From: Polytrichum commune
Taxonomy: Eukaryota > Streptophyta > Polytrichopsida > Polytrichales > Polytrichaceae
NCBI GenBank assembly: GCA_950295325.1
Contig: OX485808.1
Location: forward strand, 4,530,501-4,594,500
Direction of reading: 5' to 3'
Length of the DNA: 64,000 nt
How positions within the stretch are numbered: the first letter of the stretch is position 1; the number at the start of each line of letters is the position of its first letter. The notes beneath the pieces are model-generated. The model was not told where the DNA came from. It made no database searches and saw only the letters and a list, made by a program, of their open reading frames with translations. The position numbers and the translations under genes are program-made. Shown in pieces: positions 24,908 to 62,557 of the stretch.

Positions 24908-26278
24908 CTAGGCTAACTCCATTAGAAAGGTTTCAATTGTATCATGCAATTCCTCGCCCAGCAGTGTTGATACCCAGTCTATTTGATGGGACAACCGGAG
25001 TTCTGCCAAAGAAATCCAGTTCCCCAATCCCTCCGGTAATGTTGTAAGGCTCGAACAATGGGACAACTCTAGGGATGTCAAAGAAGTCAAGTTCCCCAAT
25101 CCCTCCGATAATGTTGTTAGGCTTGAACAATGAGACAAATTGAGGGTTGTCAAAGAAGTCAAGTTCCACAATCCCTCCGGTAATGTTGCCAAGCTGGAAC
25201 AATGGAACAACTTTAAGTATGTCAAAGAAGTCAAGTTCCCCAATCCCTCCGGTAATGTTATCAGGCTTGAACAATAGGACAAATCGAGGGACTCCAAAGA
25301 GGTCAAGTTCCCCAATCCCTCCGGTAATGTTGTAAGGCTCGACAAAAGGCACAACTGTAGGTATGTCAAAGAAGCCAAATTTCCCAATCCCTCCGGTAAT
25401 GTTGTCAAGCTCGTACAACAGAACAACTCTATATTTGTCAAAGAAGACAAGTTTCCCAATCCCTCCGGTAATGTTGTAAGGCTTGGCAAGACAGACAACC
25501 CTAGGTATGTCAAAGAAGTCAAATTTCCCAATCCCTCCGGTAATGTTGTAAGGCTTGGCAAAACAGACAACCCTAGGTATGTCAAAGAAGACAAATTCCC
25601 CAATCCCTCTGGTAATGTTGTCAGGCTTGAATAATGGGATGAACGGAGGGTTGTCAAAGAAGACAAGTTCCCCAATCCCTCCGGTAATGTTGTCATGCTC
25701 CTACAATCGTCCAAATCGAGGGTTGTCAAAGAGGTCAAGTTCCACAATCCCTCCGGTAATGTTGTGAGGCTCGAACAGTATGACAAATCGAGGGTTGTCA
25801 AAGAGGTCAAGTTCCACAATCCCTCCGGTAATGTTGTGAGGCTCGAACAGTATGACAAATCGAGGGTTGTCAAAGAGGTCAAGTTCCACAATCCCTCCGG
25901 TAATGTTGTGAGGCTCGAACAGTATGACAAATCGAGGGTTGTCAAAGAGGTCAAGTTCCACAATCCCTCCGGTAATGTTGTGAGGCTCGAACAGTATGAC
26001 AAATCGAGGGTTGTCAAAGAGGTCAAGTTCCACAATCCCTCCGGTAATGTTGTGAGGCTCGAACAGTATGACAAATCGAGGGTTGTCAAAGAAGTCAAGT
26101 TCCCCAATCCCTTCGGTAATGTTGTTAGGCTCGAACAGTATGACAAATTGAGGTTTATCAAAGAAGTCAAGTTCTCCAATCCCTCCGGTAATGTTGTCAG
26201 GCTCGAACAACAAGACAAATAGAGGGTTGTCAAAGAATTCAAGTTCCCCAATCCCTCCGGTAATGTTGTCAAGCTCCA
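24908..26278 (-). pseudogene. Rest of the copy A LRR array beyond the TGA
   Basis: The LRR frame continues open after the TGA for 456 residues to a natural end (...LMELA, TAA-type stop at 24908-24910), so one base change (TGT to TGA in an SSCW motif) is the only break in about 31 repeats. The unit is 24 residues, SLTTLPEGLGNLTSLTTLDLSYCS, with variants. With readthrough or a corrected base the full protein would be about 1647 residues. The intact downstream frame argues that the stop is recent or a sequence error. Confidence 0.75.
25731..26090 (-). repeat. Five identical 72-bp LRR units in tandem
   Basis: Units start at 25731, 25803, 25875, 25947 and 26019 and appear identical base for base. 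Each encodes one 24-residue LRR ending in EGLW. This is a very recent expansion inside the array. Confidence 0.85.
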
Positions 26279-29200
26279 TCAAGAAGACAAATCGAGGGTT
26301 GTCAAAGAATTCAAGTTCCCCAATCCCTCCGGTAATGTTGTCAAGCTCCAACAAGAAGACAAAACGAGGGTTGTCAAAGAATTCAAGTTCCCCAATCCCT
26401 CCGGTAATGTTGTCAGGCTTGAACATTCTTCCAAATCGAGGGTTGTCAAAGAACTCATGTTCCCCAATCCCTCAGGTAATGTTGTCATACTCCTACAAGA
26501 GAACAAACGGAGGGTTGTCAAAGAAATCAAGTTCCCCAATCCCGCCGGTAATGTTGTCAAGCTCGAACAATAGGACAAAATGAGGGTTCTTAAAGAAGTC
26601 AAGTTCCCCAATCCCGCCGGTAATGTTGTCAAGCTCGAACAATATGACAACTTGAGGGTTGTTAAAGAAGTCAAGTTCCCCAATCCCTCTGGTAATGTTG
26701 TCAGGCTCGAACAACAAGACAAATCGAGGCTTGTTAAAGAAATCAAGTTTCCCAATCCCTCTGGTAATGTTGTCATACTCCTACAAGAGCGCAAATCGAG
26801 GTTGGTCAAAGAAGTGAAGTTCCCCAATCCCTTTGGTAATGTTGTCATGCTTGAACAATCGTATAAATTAAGGGTTGTCAAAGAAGTCAAGTTTCCCAAT
26901 CCCTCCGGTAATGTTGTCAGGCTCTCACAGTATGACAAATCCAGGGTTGTCAAAGAAGTCAATGTCCCCAATCCCTCTGGTAATGTTGTCAGGCTTGAAC
27001 ATCTTTCCAAATTGAGGGTTGTCAAAGAAGTCAAGTTCCCCAATTCCGCTGGTAATGTTGTCAGGCTCGAACAATTGGACAATTCGAGTGCTTTCAAAGA
27101 AGTCAAGTTCCCCAATCCCTCCGGTAATGTTGTCAATGACCTACAAATCAATAGACGTAGGGAGCTGAATTGCATGTGTACAATGTTTGTGTGAATGTTG
27201 AAAGGGCTTGGCAAAATTTCTTCATGTATTAACATTCCTTCAATTTTTTGGTAGACCTGTTTTTGGAATATATCAAAAATGTCAAAACCGGATCTTTCTA
27301 AATAAAGTAGTGATAGAAATCAAATGTTGTCCTTAACAAACAAGGCCACATGTAAACCACTTTAGTGCATATTACATGAACATCTAGCATTTGTTTGAAC
27401 AACTTAGAAGTGAACCCTTTGACTTGCATGTTTGCAACTCAATCTGGCTAGATTCAACCTAATTCAAATTGCTCACATATAAAATACCTTGTTTGTTTGT
27501 CCATTTGTTGAAGGAATCATGTCTTTTTTCCAAATTCGAGTACCCTTATACACCTCCTCCGTCTCAACCATCATTCGTCCTAGGTCACGTAGTTGGTCAT
27601 GCATCTCTAGCCATCCGAATCCATCTACCTTGACCAAGGACTTGTCCACCAACACATCAAGCACATGACTTGGAGATGCACATGTACGCAAGGCTCTTTC
27701 TTTCCGATGTCTCATGGGAAAGAAACATGCTATGTCTAGAAACAACTTTTTCTCTTCGTCTTTCAATGCATCAAAACTAACCCTTAGGGTACTCCAAAGC
27801 CCTTCATCACCATCCAAACATCTGCCTCTTTTCATCCTTTGGAAAGCCCTTTCCCAACTTCGAATCTTCTCCTTTCCTTGCAAGAATGCACCCATGACTT
27901 TCAAGCTTAAAGGCAAGCCGTTGCAAGCTTCCACAATTTTGGCACGTATATCAAAGAATTGTGGTGACAATTGTCCTTCATCCGAAGAAGCATAAGAATT
28001 AAAGAGTTCTTTTGCTGCATTTCCATCTAACACCCTAACATCTATCTTACCATTCTCCTCCACAAAATCCTTCATTAGACCCCAATCACGGGTTGTTATG
28101 ATAATATTGGTGCCTTTGTTGACAAATGGAGCATGTGCTGGAATTATGTCACTCACTTGAACTTGATCTAGTGGATCGTCCAATATTAGAATGATTTTCT
28201 TGCTGGCCAACAACTTCCTCACCTTTTGTTGAGCATCCACCTTATTGGGCTTGTCTCCTTTGTCCAAGCTTTCAAGTTTCTCTAAAATTTCCCATAGGAC
28301 TTCATGTGAACTTTTGCTTTTCAATTGTCCAATGAAGCATGATGCATTGTATGTGGATTTCACGTCATCAAATACAACCTTAGCCAAGGTGGTCTTCCCT
28401 ATTCCACCCATACCAGTGAGACCCAAGATATTCACTTGTTTAAGAAGATTTCTTACTTCAACAAGCTTGCTTTCAAGACCAACGAGTTTTTCATTTTGTG
28501 TTGATGGTTCATCCACCTATAAGAAAAACACATAGGTTAGGATCCTATGTGAAGAGTTCAATAATTAAAATCCAATTTCAAGCATATTAAATTTAATAAC
28601 AATAAAAACATGACATCTGATAGGTAAACAATAAGCACATTGTTCATACCTTCTTTGTAGCAGGGATGTTTTTGACATGCTTTGAGGCTTCCGATTTCCT
28701 TTCCATATTTTGGGTCATAAACTGGTCTTTCTTGAACTGTGGTATGTCATTGGAATACGTTCCAATCATGAACTCCTTCTTCAAGGCTGTGAGTCGTTTA
28801 CAAATATTAGAAAATGTTGGCCTTCGTGAAGGATCTTCAACCCAACATTCTTCGATCAACATGGTGAGCTCCTCACAATTGATAGGTAGGTCTGGCCTGA
28901 CATGATCTTTTATCTTTTGCAACATGTTTTTCCTTGTTTTGATGTCTGAAAATGGTTGCTTGAGCGAAAGAATCTCTGAACATGTCATAGCAAATGACCA
29001 TACATCAGCTTCGAAAGGACATGCCGCACAAGGTGGGTCGTCTTTATTTTTCATCTCAGGTGCCATATACTTTGGTGTACCAATTGTATGAATTTGTAGT
29101 TCTGGTTTGCTTTGAACCTCCAATTTAGAAGTATCATAATCCATCAATTTGACAAAACCATGGCCACAATTCCCCTTCACTCCTGCAACTGTCATGGAGC

Positions 29201-30296
29201 TTAAAAGCACATTGTCTGGCTTTAGATCGAGATGGGCAACATACATGTCATGAAGGTAACACATGCCATTTGCAATTTGATACATTATATCAATTGCTTC
29301 AATATATGGTAAGCTTTTCTTTTGCTTCTTCAAGAAACCACCCAAGCTCGTTTCCATAAACTCCATTACTAAATGTAGTTCTTTCGAGACTATGGTTGTT
29401 TGATGGAGATTGTTCTCATGGTTTTCATTAGTTCCACAACCAATGAATTTGATGATGTTCGGATGGCTCAAGCCTGCTAAGATGTTGGCTTCTTTGAGAC
29501 AGTTTGGAGAAGCTTTCATTATTTTTGTTGCACTTTGTAATCCCATCCAACTTGATTTGTACACTTTGCCCGTTTGGCCGCAACCTATTTCTTTGTTGAG
29601 CTCCGGTTCCACAAAATCCTCCGAAACCTCCGAAGCATCCAATTCTGCACCTTTCACTCGTTGCAAGTCATATTGCAATCTCCTCAACAAATATTTTGAT
29701 AATGCATAGTCCTCCAAATCATTGGGCGTCGTTTGGAGGCATTGTAGAAGCCTATTTTCCAAATCTTCTTCATCACCTTGAATTTCGGCATAAGTGGCCA
29801 CGTCAAAATCAATAAGTGGGATGTCATATTTTGAATCCACACAAAAAGGTGAATATATTTCATATATTGCATCCCATATACACTTCAAATCATACACGAG
29901 TTCTCGAAAGGCCTCCCTGTTGTTCATTTGGAATGCAGCTGCATGGCACCATTTTTGCTTCCCACAATCTTCCACCAATACTCGTACTCTTTGAATAATG
30001 CGACATAACTCCTCAAGTACAAGCCCAATATTGGAGGTCTCATTAGTAGATGTGCTCATCACATTGAAATTATCCACAACTTGGACAAGTTTGTTGACAA
30101 GATTTTCACATTGTCTCTTATTCAACACTTGCTTTGTTTTGAGAACCTCATGAAGTTTGCTTACTTCTTTGCTCTGCCATTCCAAAATACATCCATGCTC
30201 TCTTTGTTCTTGTCTTTTTCGCACATATGTCCAAAGCTTTAAGGAGCAAATACTTATGAAACCCCAAATCAAAACCCGTTGCAAGATCTTAGCCAT
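26279..30296 (-). CDS. PNL-class NLR, copy A: kinase - NB-ARC - LRR, cut short by a TGA
   Basis: Exons 30296-28650, 28516-27477 and 27164 onward are joined by GT-AG introns of 133 and 312 bp. The model reaches a TGA at 26281-26279 and gives 1190 residues. Residues 8-24 are hydrophobic (possible membrane anchor). About 40-225 is helical, resembling the helical-bundle regions preceding plant MLKL-like kinases. Kinase about 231-505: glycine loop GCGQTG (238-243), Lys258, catalytic HLDLKPDN (355-362, Leu for Arg), DYD (386-388, for DFG), APE 412-414. NB-ARC from about 550: GMGGIGKTT (584), ILILDD, IIITTRD, GLPLS (749), FLDIACFF, MHD (854). About 12 LRRs follow. The GTGAGC donor and ATTCAG acceptor were chosen because they keep the LRR frame. 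Predicted role: intracellular immune receptor. Confidence 0.82.
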
Positions 30297-55186: not shown

Positions 55187-58100
55187 TCAACATCTCAAAT
55201 TGCGGATTTCCAAAGAAATCAAGTTCCCCAATTCCTTCGGTAATGTTGTCAGGCTCAAACAATTGGACAAATCGAGCGTTTTCAAAGAAATCAAATTCCC
55301 CATCCCCTTTGGTAATGTTGTCAGATGCGAACAGTCGAACAAATTGAGGGTTTTCAAAGAAGTCAAGTTGCCCAATCCCTCTGGTAATGTTGTCATGCTC
55401 GAACACCCTGATAATTTCAGGGTTGTCAAAGAAGACAAGTTGCCCAATCCCTCCGGCAATGTTGTCAGCCTCCAACAATTTGACAAATCAAGGGTTGTCA
55501 AAGAAGTCAATGTCCCCAATCCCTGTGGTAATGTTGTCAGGCTTGAACATCTTTTCAAATTGAGGTTTGTCAAAGAAGACAAGTTCCCCAATCCCTTTGG
55601 TAGTCTTTTTAGCATCACACAAATTGATAAATCGAGGGTTTTCAAAGAAATCAAGTTTCCCAATACCTCTGGTAATGTTGTTAAGCTTGTACAATTGGAC
55701 AAATAGAGGGTTTCCAAAGAAATCAAGTCCTGCAATCCCTTCGGTAATGATGTCATCCTCGAATAAGACAAATTGAGGGTTGTCAAAGAAGTCAACTTGC
55801 CCAATCCCTCCGGTAATGTTGTCAGGCTCTTACAACTTTCCAAATTGAGAGTTGTCAAAGAAGTCATGTTCCCCAATCCCTCAGGTAATGTTTTCATCAG
55901 CGAACAATTGACTAGAATGAGGGTTTTCAAACAGGTCAAGTTCCCCAATCCCTGCGGTAATGACGTCAAGCTCGAACAATAGGACAAATTGAGGGTTATC
56001 AAAGAAGTCAAGTTCCCCAATCCCTCCGGCAATGTTGTCAGGCTCTTACAACTTTCCAAATTGAGAGTTGTCAAAGAAGTCATGTTCCCCAATCCCTCAG
56101 GTAATGTTTTCATCAGCGAACAATTGACTAGAATGAGGGTTTTCAAACAGGTCAAGTTCCCCAATCCCTGCGGTAATGACGTCAAGCTCGAACAATAGGA
56201 CAAATTGAGGGTTATCAAAGAAGTCAAGTTCCCCAATCCCTCCGGCAATGTTGTCAGGCTCTTACAACTTTCCAAACTGAGAGTTGTCAAAGAAGTTATG
56301 TTCCCCAATCCCTCAGTTAATGTTTTCATCAGCGAACAATTGACTAGACTGAGGGTTGTCAAAGAAGTCAAGTTCCCCAATCCCTCCGGTAATGTTATCA
56401 AGCTCGAACAATAAGACAAATCAAGGGTTGTCAAAGAAATCAAGGTCCCCAATCCCTCCGGTAATATTGTCAGGCTTTCACAAGATGACAAATCCAAGTT
56501 TGTCAAAGAAGTCAAGTTCCCCAATCCCTTTGGTAATGTTGCCAAGCTCAAACAACAAGACAAATGGAAGGTTGTCAAAGAAGTCAAGTTCCCCAATCCC
56601 TCCGGTAATGTTGTTAGGCTCGAACAATTGTACAAACAGAGGGTTGTCAAAGAAGTCAAGTTCCCTAATTCCTTTGGTAATGTTCTCAAGCTCGACCAAC
56701 AAGACAAATCGAGGGTTGTCAAAGAAGTCAAGTTGCCCAATCCCTCCGGTAATGTTGTCATCCTCCCACAATCACCCAAATCGAGGGTTTTCAAAGAAAT
56801 CAAGTTCCCCAATCCCACCGGAAATGTTGTCAAGTTCGAGCAACTGTACAAATTGAGGGTTGTTAAAGAAGTCAAGTTCCCCAATCCCTCCGGTAATGTT
56901 GTCAGGCTCCAACATTGTTCCAGACCGAGGGTTGTCAAAGAAGTCAAGTTGCCCAATCTCTTCGGTAATGTTGTCAGGTTCGAACAATTGGACAAATCGA
57001 GGGTTTTCAAAGAAATCAAGTTCCCCAATCCTTCCGGTAATGTTGTCAGGCTCGAACAACATAACACAACCGCGTTTGTCAAAGTCACGTTCCCCAATCT
57101 CTTTGATAATCCTCTCAAGCTCGAACAAGAAGGAAAATTGAGGGTTGTTAAAGAAGTCAAGTTCCCCAATCCCTCCGGTAATGTTGTCAGGCTCCAACAT
57201 CCTTCCAGACCGAGGGTTGTCAAAGAAGTCAAGTTTCCCAATCCCTCCGGTAATGTTGTCAGGCTCTCACAGTATGACAAATCCAGGGTTGTCAAAGAAG
57301 TCAATGTCCCCAATCCCTCTGGTAATGTTGTCAGGCTTGAACATCTTTCCAAATTGAGGGTTGTCAAAGAAGTCAAGTTCCCCAATTCCGCTGGTAATGT
57401 TGTCAGGCTCGAACAATTGGACAATTCGAGTGCTTTCAAAGAAGTCAAGTTCCCCAATCCCTCCGGTAATGTTGTCAATGACCTACAAATCAATAGACGT
57501 AGGGAGCTGAATTGCATGTGTACAATGTTTGTGTGAATGTTGAAAGGGCTTGGCAAAATTTCTTCATGTATTAACATTCCTTCAATTTTTTGGTAGACCT
57601 GTTTTTGGAATATATCAAAAATGTCAAAACCGGATCTTTCTAAATAAAGTAGTGATAGAAATCAAATGTTGTCCTTAACAAACAAGGCCACATGTAAACC
57701 ACTTTAGTGCATATTACATGAACATCTAGCATTTGTTTGAACAACTTAGAAGTGAACCCTTTGACTTGCATGTTTGCAACTCAATCTGGCTAGATTCAAC
57801 CTAATTCAAATTGCTCACATATAAAATACCTTGTTTGTTTGTCCATTTGTTGAAGGAATCATGTCTTTTTTCCAAATTCGAGTACCCTTATACACCTCCT
57901 CCGTCTCAACCATCATTCGTCCTAGGTCACGTAGTTGGTCATGCATCTCTAGCCATCCGAATCCATCTACCTTGACCAAGGACTTGTCCACCAACACATC
58001 AAGCACATGACTTGGAGATGCACATGTACGCAAGGCTCTTTCTTTCCGATGTCTCATGGGAAAGAAACATGCTATGTCTAGAAACAACTTTTTCTCTTCG

Positions 58101-60590
58101 TCTTTCAATGCATCAAAACTAACCCTTAGGGTACTCCAAAGCCCTTCATCACCATCCAAACATCTGCCTCTTTTCATCCTTTGGAAAGCCCTTTCCCAAC
58201 TTCGAATCTTCTCCTTTCCTTGCAAGAATGCACCCATGACTTTCAAGCTTAAAGGCAAGCCGTTGCAAGCTTCCACAATTTTGGCACGTATATCAAAGAA
58301 TTGTGGTGACAATTGTCCTTCATCCGAAGAAGCATAAGAATTAAAGAGTTCTTTTGCTGCATTTCCATCTAACACCCTAACATCTATCTTACCATTCTCC
58401 TCCACAAAATCCTTCATTAGACCCCAATCACGGGTTGTTATGATAATATTGGTGCCTTTGTTGACAAATGGAGCATGTGCTGGAATTATGTCACTCACTT
58501 GAACTTGATCTAGTGGATCGTCCAATATTAGAATGATTTTCTTGCTGGCCAACAACTTCCTCACCTTTTGTTGAGCATCCACCTTATTGGGCTTGTCTCC
58601 TTTGTCCAAGCTTTCAAGTTTCTCTAAAATTTCCCATAGGACTTCATGTGAACTTTTGCTTTTCAATTGTCCAATGAAGCATGATGCATTGTATGTGGAT
58701 TTCACGTCATCAAATACAACCTTAGCCAAGGTGGTCTTCCCTATTCCACCCATACCAGTGAGACCCAAGATATTCACTTGTTTAAGAAGATTTCTTACTT
58801 CAACAAGCTTGCTTTCAAGACCAACGAGTTTTTCATTTTGTGTTGATGGTTCATCCACCTATAAGAAAAACACATAGGTTAGGATCCTATGTGAAGAGTT
58901 CAATAATTAAAATCCAATTTCAAGCATATTAAATTTAATAACAATAAAAACATGACATCTGATAGGTAAACAATAAGCACATTGTTCATACCTTCTTTGT
59001 AGCAGGGATGTTTTTGACATGCTTTGAGGCTTCCGATTTCCTTTCCATATTTTGGGTCATAAACTGGTCTTTCTTGAACTGTGGTATGTCATTGGAATAC
59101 GTTCCAATCATGAACTCCTTCTTCAAGGCTGTGAGTCGTTTACAAATATTAGAAAATGTTGGCCTTCGTGAAGGATCTTCAACCCAACATTCTTCGATCA
59201 ACATGGTGAGCTCCTCACAATTGATAGGTAGGTCTGGCCTGACATGATCTTTTATCTTTTGCAACATGTTTTTCCTTGTTTTGATGTCTGAAAATGGTTG
59301 CTTGAGCGAAAGAATCTCTGAACATGTCATAGCAAATGACCATACATCAGCTTCGAAAGGACATGCCGCACAAGGTGGGTCGTCTTTATTTTTCATCTCA
59401 GGTGCCATATACTTTGGTGTACCAATTGTATGAATTTGTAGTTCTGGTTTGCTTTGAACCTCCAATTTAGAAGTATCATAATCCATCAATTTGACAAAAC
59501 CATGGCCACAATTCCCCTTCACTCCTGCAACTGTCATGGAGCTTAAAAGCACATTGTCTGGCTTTAGATCGAGATGGGCAACATACATGTCATGAAGGTA
59601 ACACATGCCATTTGCAATTTGATACATTATATCAATTGCTTCAATATATGGTAAGCTTTTCTTTTGCTTCTTCAAGAAACCACCCAAGCTCGTTTCCATA
59701 AACTCCATTACTAAATGTAGTTCTTTCGAGACTATGGTTGTTTGATGGAGATTGTTCTCATGGTTTTCATTAGTTCCACAACCAATGAATTTGATGATGT
59801 TCGGATGGCTCAAGCCTGCTAAGATGTTGGCTTCTTTGAGACAGTTTGGAGAAGCTTTCATTATTTTTGTTGCACTTTGTAATCCCATCCAACTTGATTT
59901 GTACACTTTGCCCGTTTGCCCGGAACCTATTCCTTTGTTGAGCTCCGGTTCCACAAAATCCTCCGAAACCTCCGAAGCATCCAATTCCGCACCTTTCACT
60001 CGTTGCAAGTCATATTGCAATCTCTTCAACAAATATTTTGATAATTCAAAGTCCTCCAAATTATTAGGCGTTGTTTGGAGGCATTGTAGAAGCCTATTTT
60101 CGAGATCTTCTTCATCACCTTGAATTTCGTCATAAGTGGCCACGTCAAAATCAATAAGTGGGATGTCATATTTCGAATGCACACAAAAAGGTGAATATAT
60201 CTCACATATTGCATCCCATGTACACTTCAAATTAGATACTAGCTCTCGAAAGGCCTCCGTATTGTTCATTTGAAAAGCAGCTGCATGGCACCATGTTTGC
60301 TTCCCACAATCTTCCACCAATACTCGTACTCTTTGAATAATGCGACATAACTCCTCAAGTACAAGCCCAATATTGGAGGCCTCATAAGTAGACATGATCA
60401 TCACATTGAAATTATCCACAACTTGGACGAGTTTGTTGAGAAGATTTTCACATTGTCTCTTATTCAACACTTGCTTTGTCTTGAAAACCTCATGAAGTTT
60501 ACTTACTTCTTTGCTTTGCCATTCCAAAATATATCCATGCTTACTTTGTTCTTGTCTTTTTCTCACATTTTTTCTTTTGAAACCCCACAT
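55187..60590 (-). CDS. PNL-class NLR, copy B: kinase - NB-ARC - long LRR array
   Basis: Exons 60590-58992, 58858-57819 and 57506-55187 give 1652 residues with splice sites identical to copy A. The original start is lost: the region matching A's ATG carries an in-frame TAG, so the first usable ATG is at 60590. A deletion removes A's hydrophobic N-terminal segment, so the product begins MWGFKRKNVRKRQ and is probably not membrane-anchored. The kinase has a canonical GSGQTG loop (A has GCGQTG) but keeps HLDLKPDN and DYD. The NB-ARC (GMGGIGKTT, LILDD, GLPLS, FLDIACFF, MHD) is identical to A. About 32 LRRs follow before a TGA. The role is inferred as an intracellular immune receptor, with the LRR array as the likely variable recognition surface. 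Confidence 0.82.
55768..56415 (-). repeat. 216-bp higher-order repeat (three LRRs), three copies
   Basis: Units begin near 55768, 55984 and 56200. The first two are nearly identical, including the unusual GAACAATTGACTAGAATGAG and 'GGTAATGACGTCAAG' variants. The third departs in its last 72 bp. This shows that three LRRs were duplicated as a block. Confidence 0.85.
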
Positions 60591-60605
60591 CGAAACCCGT
60601 TGCAA

Positions 60606-62557
60606 GATCTAATGATGGAATACCTGTTATTTATCCCAGCTATGGATCTTTATTCAGTCACCTGTTTTGCACACCATAACCTTGTAAGTATACAACCATT
60701 GTCCTCATCTACCACAATAAAATAAGTGCATCATTATTTTAACAAAGTTATAAAATGAATACAAACAATATTAAGCTAATTACCCCAAAAAATACAATGC
60801 AAAAGTTGATCATACTAAAGGATAATCCACACTCTAATTTTGGGATACATTAATTAAAATATAAACAAATAAATGGTATTTATAATGTCAAGAATGAATG
60901 TGAAAGTAGTTTCTCTACATAGCTTCAAAAATACTCAAAAAACATTATTTAGTGGCATTTATCATTTGGACTTGCATTTTGGTATAATGTTTTACAAGCG
61001 AAATACAAATATGTGTTATACTAGTAATATCCAAGACTACACATGGTAAAATATGCCATTCCAATTAAAGAGTTAGAGCGATACGACAATCAAGTGCATC
61101 ATGCTAATTAATGTTATAACACATGGTTTTATTCCCTAAAAAGAAATTTAGTTTTTTCTTGGTCAAACATAGAGAGGTGTATACATAGGAAATGAACTTC
61201 TAGCTCTAAGAAATGGACCCTAAACATCACCTTCCTCTCTCCCCTCGAGCACTCAATCAAATTCAATAGTCTATTCCTCAACTAACCAATAAAGAACCAG
61301 ACACTTAAAAAATAACACATTAATATTCCTAAAAGTTTCATATGAGCAACCTTGGACAATAAGATATGTATAAACGAATCTCAACACTAACAATTCATGT
61401 GCATTTTGGTGATTACACACAACCAAACTATATGACTAATCAACATCGCCTTCACAACAAGTGAGTGTAGAGTAAATAAACTTCATGCTCATAAAAAACA
61501 AACGTTTCCACTCAAAAACAACATCTACCAATTGTGCTTCGATGTTCAATTGGATAACCACACCCACATGTTGCTCATCCAATGGCATATAGTAGTTCAG
61601 TAGATAGACCGTGTGCATAGACAAACACCAATAGCACATACCATGTCAATAATTTATGAACTAATTGAGTTTTACGTTTCATTTTTGAGAGATGATCAAT
61701 GGCATTGTTGAATTTATGTAAAAACATTTCCCTACTCATAGCATAATTTAGTTTTTTATACGGTCTAAAAGCCAACCTAACATTGTGGCTTTCATAGGAT
61801 AGGAGAAGATCAAAATATTATGTGTGAGAGGTCAATATGCGTGGAGATATAGAACATGCCAATTTGCCTAGAATCCATTATGTTCCTTGACTACGAACCT
61901 CACAAAGAAAGATCGAACTTATCATAACATACATGAGGTTTCAATAAAATCACGCAAACAATAACAACACACAAAAATGGCAAACACAAACATGTTTCTA
62001 CGTGTCTATTGCAGATGGACAATACATTAACAATAACCAAAGTCTTAAAAAAATCCTCAAAAACAGACATTCATGCTCATTCTCAAAGACAACACAGTCA
62101 TGAAACTTTAAACTTACAAGATAGGTATATCACCACAAAAGTTTCACACTCAAACCTTCTCGTGAGCCCTTCAACCAAATCACCTCTCCATTATTCATCC
62201 TATGCAACCTCCCAATTGTGGTGGCAAGACTACTTAGGAATATGAATTAGACATCCGCTTTCAACCAATTCAGGCTAGGTTGGAGAGGGGAAATGTTGGA
62301 CTATAAAAATATATGACTTCCAAATTAAGATATTCATTCCCTCCTTCCCCCAAGATCCACACAATTGATTGATCCAAATAACCGACTAGGATGCAATCTA
62401 TTGATGCCTAATCCACCTTCATCTCCTCCAACTAGGCTACAAAATGTTTCAAGAAAGGATGAGGCAAGGATGCCATCTAATATTATGAAGTTGACATTAA
62501 CATCTTATACTAAATTAATCAATGATATGATCCATAATCTCTTATCATTCTAATGTA
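60606..62557. other. Upstream region of PNL copy B
   Basis: It is homologous to 30297-32269 with many small differences. It presumably holds the promoter; no gene of its own is supported. Confidence 0.5.

Follow-up and report, generated by a model that had tools for sequence, protein, structure and literature searches.

Several kinds of described proteins come close to the gene considered here. The moss PNL class of nucleotide-binding leucine-rich repeat (NLR) receptors combines a protein kinase, a nucleotide-binding site (NBS) and leucine-rich repeats (LRRs) in one gene, with phase-0 introns at both borders (Xue et al. 2012, PMC3352924); the Pkn-NLRs (PMC11218826) and PpC24 (PMC3991678) belong with it. 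In the accessible text of these papers the N-terminus of such proteins is a protein kinase domain only, and a 2023 review discusses moss kinase-NLRs as enzymes with phosphorylation as their output (PMC10952240, accessible sections). The gene analysed here lies in a 64,000-nucleotide stretch of the moss Polytrichum commune (contig OX485808.1, positions 4,530,501 to 4,594,500; "the window" below), where it starts with an ATG at 30296 on the minus strand and has three exons. With a probability of roughly 0.6, it is a moss PNL in which a whole plant-MLKL-type module, made up of a HeLo-like helical region, a brace and a kinase, is fused to NB-ARC and LRRs.

Other kinds include plant MLKLs and fungal NLRs. 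Plant MLKLs, which the consulted part of PMC9950082 presents as a family found throughout seed plants, have a helical domain, a brace and a kinase in the same order as the moss gene, to which they are linked by profile homology and by the best kinase matches, whereas in the moss gene a hydrophobic leader precedes these parts and an NLR tail follows them. To our knowledge, the Arabidopsis MLKLs (AtMLKLs) do not carry an NB-ARC-LRR. Wheat Pm13 likewise has a HeLo-type helical domain, a brace and a kinase, and acts in resistance, but it is without an NLR part and its kinase is of the receptor-like kinase (RLK) type (PMC10951266, accessible text). Fungal NLRs with HeLo or MLKL-like N-termini do place a HeLo-type domain and an NLR in one chain; however, they belong to another kingdom, and the accessible sections of the review (PMC10952240) do not mention a kinase separating the HeLo domain from the NB domain. 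The coiled-coil NLRs (CC-NLRs) and RPW8-type NLRs (RNLs) also have a helical N-terminal domain on an NB-ARC-LRR, but no intervening kinase, and the Roq1-type winged helix of the moss gene (WHD_ROQ1, PF23282) may point toward the Toll/interleukin-1 receptor-type NLR (TNL) side.

PNLs, plant MLKLs and fungal HeLo NLRs are thus each already known, and what appears to be new here is the MLKL-type N-terminal module. No report of MLKL-like PNLs in moss was found in the titles, abstract openings and consulted sections of the literature on MLKL, HeLo, bryophyte NLRs and DUF1221, although a prior description is possible, as subscription papers were mostly outside the search. The words "HeLo" and "DUF1221" do not occur in the searched text of Chia et al. 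2024 (PMC11218826), and a clade with the kinase motifs HLD and DYD was not found described in the accessible PNL literature. The DUF1221 model used by NLRtracker (PF06760; PMC8559963, accessible text) misses the window protein, so that such receptors would probably be listed as plain kinase-NLRs.

The N-terminus of the window protein is shared with a large set of loci. A search of the genome (a 408 Mb assembly of 64 contigs, with C1 to C7 of 42 to 78 Mb each) with residues 1-228 gave at least 150 matches, the weakest at E 3e-18, among the best 150 of 387 candidates that were scored; in one further genome search the best 126 of 466 candidates were scored. A DUF1221 search of the same genome returned one match at E <=0.001, the single-frame kinase L031, which lies above the Pfam cut-off. 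Residues 58 to 512 of exon 1 can be aligned with L031 at 26 percent identity, with E 1e-31 in a search of a small local set. When the kinase is removed from the L031 sequence, a 45-paralogue profile that excludes L031 still scores its N-terminus at 53.1 bits, compared with 12.0 for the best of 2000 shuffles. Similarly, an N-terminal profile of 15 PNLs, kinase excluded, scores L031 and L054-L058 at 44.6-58.4 bits, and 100 column-shuffled profiles reach at most 7.2. None of these six loci has an NB-ARC match within about 2 kb downstream, whereas 12 of 12 control PNL loci show one, and they are therefore stand-alone kinases as far as those 2 kb extend. In the reverse direction, the L031 N-terminus has at least 138 matches at E <=0.01 among the best 150 of 340 candidates scored; these include PNL loci, for example two close paralogues on C1, at 69.36 Mb (E 0.0099) and at 69.54 Mb (E 0.004). 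Profile-profile comparison with hhalign gave a probability of 98.0 and an E-value of 2.9e-13 over 155 columns, and the helical stretch with detectable homology covers approximately residues 56-208, with the leader (residues 1-33) ahead of it. L064 was excluded from alignment A5. L031 and L054-L062 (C1:75.40 Mb; C5:49.25-49.40 Mb) form a small non-NLR cluster of MLKL-like helical-region kinases. Its members fall into two types, which share about 40 percent and about 30 percent identity with L031.

The firm link is thus the one between the PNL N-terminus and moss DUF1221-type kinases, and it is DUF1221 that extends the likeness to plant MLKL. In NLRtracker, DUF1221 (PF06760) stands for the plant MLKL HeLo domain (PMC8559963), and the authors of the Pm13 study equate the plant MLKL helical bundle with HeLo or DUF1221 (PMC10951266), both in the sections consulted. 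All six stand-alone kinases match DUF1221 at E <=1, L031 being the one shown above the cut-off. GIT1_C, the best Pfam match of the window protein's N-terminus (E 0.044), was taken as chance. Against the PDB, a joint 27-sequence profile finds 6lba at the top (E 8.3e-7), with coverage of both the helical domain (21-127) and the brace (183-228). The best PDB matches of exon 1 as a whole are again 6lba (3.4e-24) and then 6ka4 (2.1e-23), although their lead appears modest, the next match being an MLK kinase at 1.4e-21. We take 6lba to be AtMLKL3 and 6ka4 to be AtMLKL2; their PDB names are "Protein kinase family protein" and "F22L4.1 protein". The original prediction had inferred that the first region resembles the helical bundle of MLKL-like proteins from plants; at the level of sequence that guess holds, by several profiles, and the PNL N-terminus appears to be a HeLo-brace-kinase module and not a kinase alone.

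A number of results weigh against this assignment, and structure prediction, the other approach to it, was of no help. AlphaFold2 models of residues 1-235 and 1-549, with only the two window copies aligned, reached predicted local distance difference test (pLDDT) scores of 38.5 and 32.2 and gave no usable structure. The helical region of the window protein has no Pfam match above the cut-off and none to DUF1221 (PF06760). In the joint profile search 6ka4 is third, at only E 0.15, and with the PNL-only profile 6lba is again first but only at E 0.0077. When the profile is restricted to the six stand-alone proteins, both AtMLKL structures are absent from the PDB matches at E <=10 and RpoD appears at 0.0012, which implies that PDB matches of such size can be chance. 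The kinase tree does not resolve the point at which PNL and stand-alone MLKL-like kinases join. In the second copy of the gene the hydrophobic leader shows no visible constraint, with a ratio of nonsynonymous to synonymous substitution rates (dN/dS) of 2.0 (L006: dN 0.160, dS 0.079; few sites). Finally, the receptor half of the window gene is probably cut off by an in-frame TGA, and the data come from one genome, analysed at the sequence level throughout.

The kinase itself is readily recognized (PF00069, residues 233-500, 1.7e-41), and HLD and DYD are found in place of HRD and DFG, as had been noted earlier. Motifs were tabulated for 42 exon-1 proteins; the table does not include L001, which is the window gene, or L012, L018, L033 and L046, in which the exon-1 frame is split or short. 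HLD and DYD occur together in 27 of the 42, the window protein among them; the other pairs are HLD/DYG (four), HLD/NYG (one), HRD/DYD (one), HRD/DFG (seven) and HCD/DFG (one), and L031 has HRD/HFS. Because the pair is common to 27 of the 42 proteins, it is not random decay. The ATP lysine is kept in all 42, and the window protein keeps both aspartates, so that the label "pseudokinase" is without support; "non-RD kinase with altered DFG", using the customary term "non-RD" for kinases, is safer. All 19 paralogues compared with the window gene have a dN/dS below 1, both for the helical region (0.28-0.70) and for the kinase (0.24-0.68), and at the level of these ratios purifying selection on both is demonstrated. 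In a kinase tree of 38 rows, a single branch (99/97) unites the 15 PNL rows with four further HeLo-kinases (L063-L066). No NB-ARC match lies within 1.8-2.1 kb downstream of L063 and L064; L065 and L066 were checked in the fetched locus only. Two of the ten "other kinases" in the tree, L070 and L074, are themselves picked up by the joint N-terminal profile (at 19.7 and 16.3 bits), and the outgroup is consequently not clean enough for the tree to support any inference on kinase origin.

Other readings of the N-terminal half have to be weighed against a HeLo-brace-kinase module. It is improbable that the N-terminus is the CC or RPW8-type four-helix bundle of usual NLRs and resembles MLKL only through convergence of helical bundles. 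At E <=1, RPW8 (PF05659) does match three of the 15 PNL members, as many as MLKL_N, with DUF1221 matching one (best E-values 0.014, 0.026 and 0.0044, respectively), but in the joint set of 27 DUF1221 is the family most often matched (10/27, compared with 4/27 for MLKL_N). Furthermore, the 12 (joint) and seven (PNL-only) PDB hits at E <=10 include no CC or RPW8 structure, neither Rx_N nor RPW8 matches the window protein above the Pfam cut-off, and the order of helical region, brace and kinase is that of MLKL, with the brace aligning too. A less remote alternative, though still an unlikely one, is that the kinase provides the output, an activated oligomer phosphorylating its targets while the HeLo-related helical region only dimerises or self-inhibits. 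The retained lysine and aspartates would fit such an enzyme, as would an intact DFG in eight of the 42 proteins (with HRD in seven of these); phosphorylation is the output expected in the 2023 review (PMC10952240), and a P. patens PNL kinase caused a modest, variable leaf response according to the accessible text of PMC11218826. On the other hand, joint retention of HLD and DYD in 27 of 42 proteins would be unusual for a constrained enzyme, and the helical region has been retained in close and distant clades alike, under purifying selection.

The remaining alternatives concern the integrity of the gene. The kinase and the NB-ARC might be adjacent separate genes, since exons 1 and 2 of the window gene are separate open frames known from DNA alone; this is very improbable, because the far-clade loci L035 and L036 encode helical region, kinase and NB-ARC in one intronless frame and L077 (C6:37264700-37274699) reads in one frame without introns for at least 3,304 codons (3,674 in another listing), through helical region, kinase, NB-ARC/P-loop and LRRs. 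The positions and phases of the introns also match those of published PNLs, and the order of kinase, NBS and LRR (the last cut by the TGA), together with phase-0 introns at both borders, supports membership in the moss PNL class and a single protein with kinase and NB-ARC, in agreement with the original prediction. The claim of a fusion to a complete NB-ARC-LRR needs to be amended: helical N-terminus, kinase and NB-ARC are all present, but the gene end given as 26279 is an in-frame TGA (26281-26279) within a single 72-bp tandem array, in which a strict LRR pattern has ten matches ahead of the stop and sixteen past it. The TGA may reflect a truncated copy, a new stop or an assembly error. It is therefore conceivable, if not the favored reading, that the window gene is a decaying or truncated member of a fast-turning cluster, without a full receptor, and that the architecture belongs to its intact paralogues. 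Early breaks occur elsewhere as well: among the seven paralogues with a fetched LRR exon, L048 and L049 have short first LRR frames (205 and 274 codons), L012 and L018 have a split exon 1, and the second copy in the window is without the ATG of the first. However, the first LRR frame in the other five of the seven runs from 656 to at least 1,177 codons, exons 1 and 2 of the window gene are intact with proper splice sites, dN/dS is below 1, an LRR of 12 repeats could still function, and a stop past the NBS is reported in P. patens PpC24 transcripts too (PMC3991678, accessible text). Five consecutive LRR units at window positions 25700-26100 have an identical protein sequence (SYCSSLTTLPEGLWNLTSLTTLDL), a sign of recent repeat turnover.

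If the preferred reading, an MLKL-type module on an NB-ARC-LRR, is correct, a sequence of events can be proposed. The LRR would sense a ligand or an altered partner, as expected of the NLR class, and the NB-ARC would swap its nucleotide and oligomerise, gathering several HeLo-kinase units. The kinase, non-RD and with an altered DFG in the HLD/DYD clade, would serve chiefly to clamp or switch the helical domain, to judge from its motifs, which are changed but maintained. Once released, the helical domains, perhaps together with the leader, would then act on a membrane and lead to cell death or calcium entry by analogy with MLKL. Executioner and sensor would thus be found within one chain, in which case the expected output shifts to membrane action of the helical domain, as for MLKL and the CC/RPW8 domains, and the switching of plant MLKL becomes testable. 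MLKL-type modules would also join the list of land-plant NLR N-termini. A broader proposal, for the present a tentative one, is that the whole moss kinase-NLR class is an MLKL-NLR class, and that this genome would have at least 150 receptors whose NB-ARC wheel drives an MLKL-type HeLo executioner on the same polypeptide, a necrosome and a resistosome in one chain. Under this proposal, stand-alone MLKL-like kinases and PNLs would come from one HeLo-kinase ancestor, and the motifs would have drifted from HRD/DFG through HLD/DYG to HLD/DYD, from enzyme to clamp.

The leader may be a membrane anchor or an inserting segment. Its best 19-residue Kyte-Doolittle mean is 1.46, slightly under the usual membrane-span cut-off of about 1.6. 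It is present in near paralogues and is not seen in most far-clade rows; among these, L034 begins with a separate hydrophobic stretch. Where others carry the leader, L034 (C4:1385700-1388200) starts with MGCLLYC, which would presumably suit N-myristoylation and palmitoylation.

Table 1. Features of the PNL gene and its second copy, in window coordinates
Feature	Position	Strand	Remarks
Exon 1	28650..30296	minus	549 codons: leader, HeLo-like helical region, brace, kinase
Hydrophobic leader, residues 1-33	30198..30296	minus	ends in basic residues; kept in near paralogues
HeLo/DUF1221-like helical region and brace, residues 34-222	29631..30197	minus	putative, from profile comparisons
Protein kinase, residues 233-502	28791..29600	minus	ATP lysine kept; Pfam, best PDB matches 6lba and 6ka4
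HLD, residues 355-357	29226..29234	minus	replaces HRD; Asp kept
DYD, residues 386-388	29133..29141	minus	replaces DFG; first Asp kept
Intron 1	28517..28649	minus	GT-AG, phase 0, kinase/NB-ARC border
Exon 2	27488..28516	minus	343 codons: NB-ARC and winged helix
NB-ARC	27824-28441	minus	in exon 2; PF00931 1.2e-36
Roq1-type winged helix	27563-27769	minus	in exon 2; PF23282 1.2e-13
Intron 2	27257..27487	minus	GT-AG, phase 0, NB-ARC/LRR border
Exon 3 to first stop	26282..27256	minus	325 codons, LRRs
In-frame TGA	26279..26281	minus	inside LRR array
Open frame past TGA	24911..26278	minus	456 codons, more LRRs and non-LRR end; TAG at 24910-24908
72-bp tandem array	25007..27135	minus	29.6 copies, encodes LRRs across the stop
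Second PNL copy (L006)	55190..60608	minus	exon 1 frame 60608-58992, exon 2 58858-57830, LRR exon from 57598, open to 55190

The exon 1 frame of the second copy (58992-60608) also lacks part of the leader; it begins after a TAG, and its first in-frame methionine is the seventh codon. Between the two copies, positions 26901-29500 and approximately 57243-59842 are 100 percent identical in 26 of 26 bins of 100 bases, which span most of the kinase, intron 1, the NB-ARC, intron 2 and the first LRRs. This pattern suggests that gene conversion has acted on the kinase-NB-ARC core of the two copies, although it may also be an assembly artefact. Outside the identical block, the bins are 87-99 percent identical upstream, including the helical region, and 74-88 percent identical in the LRR.

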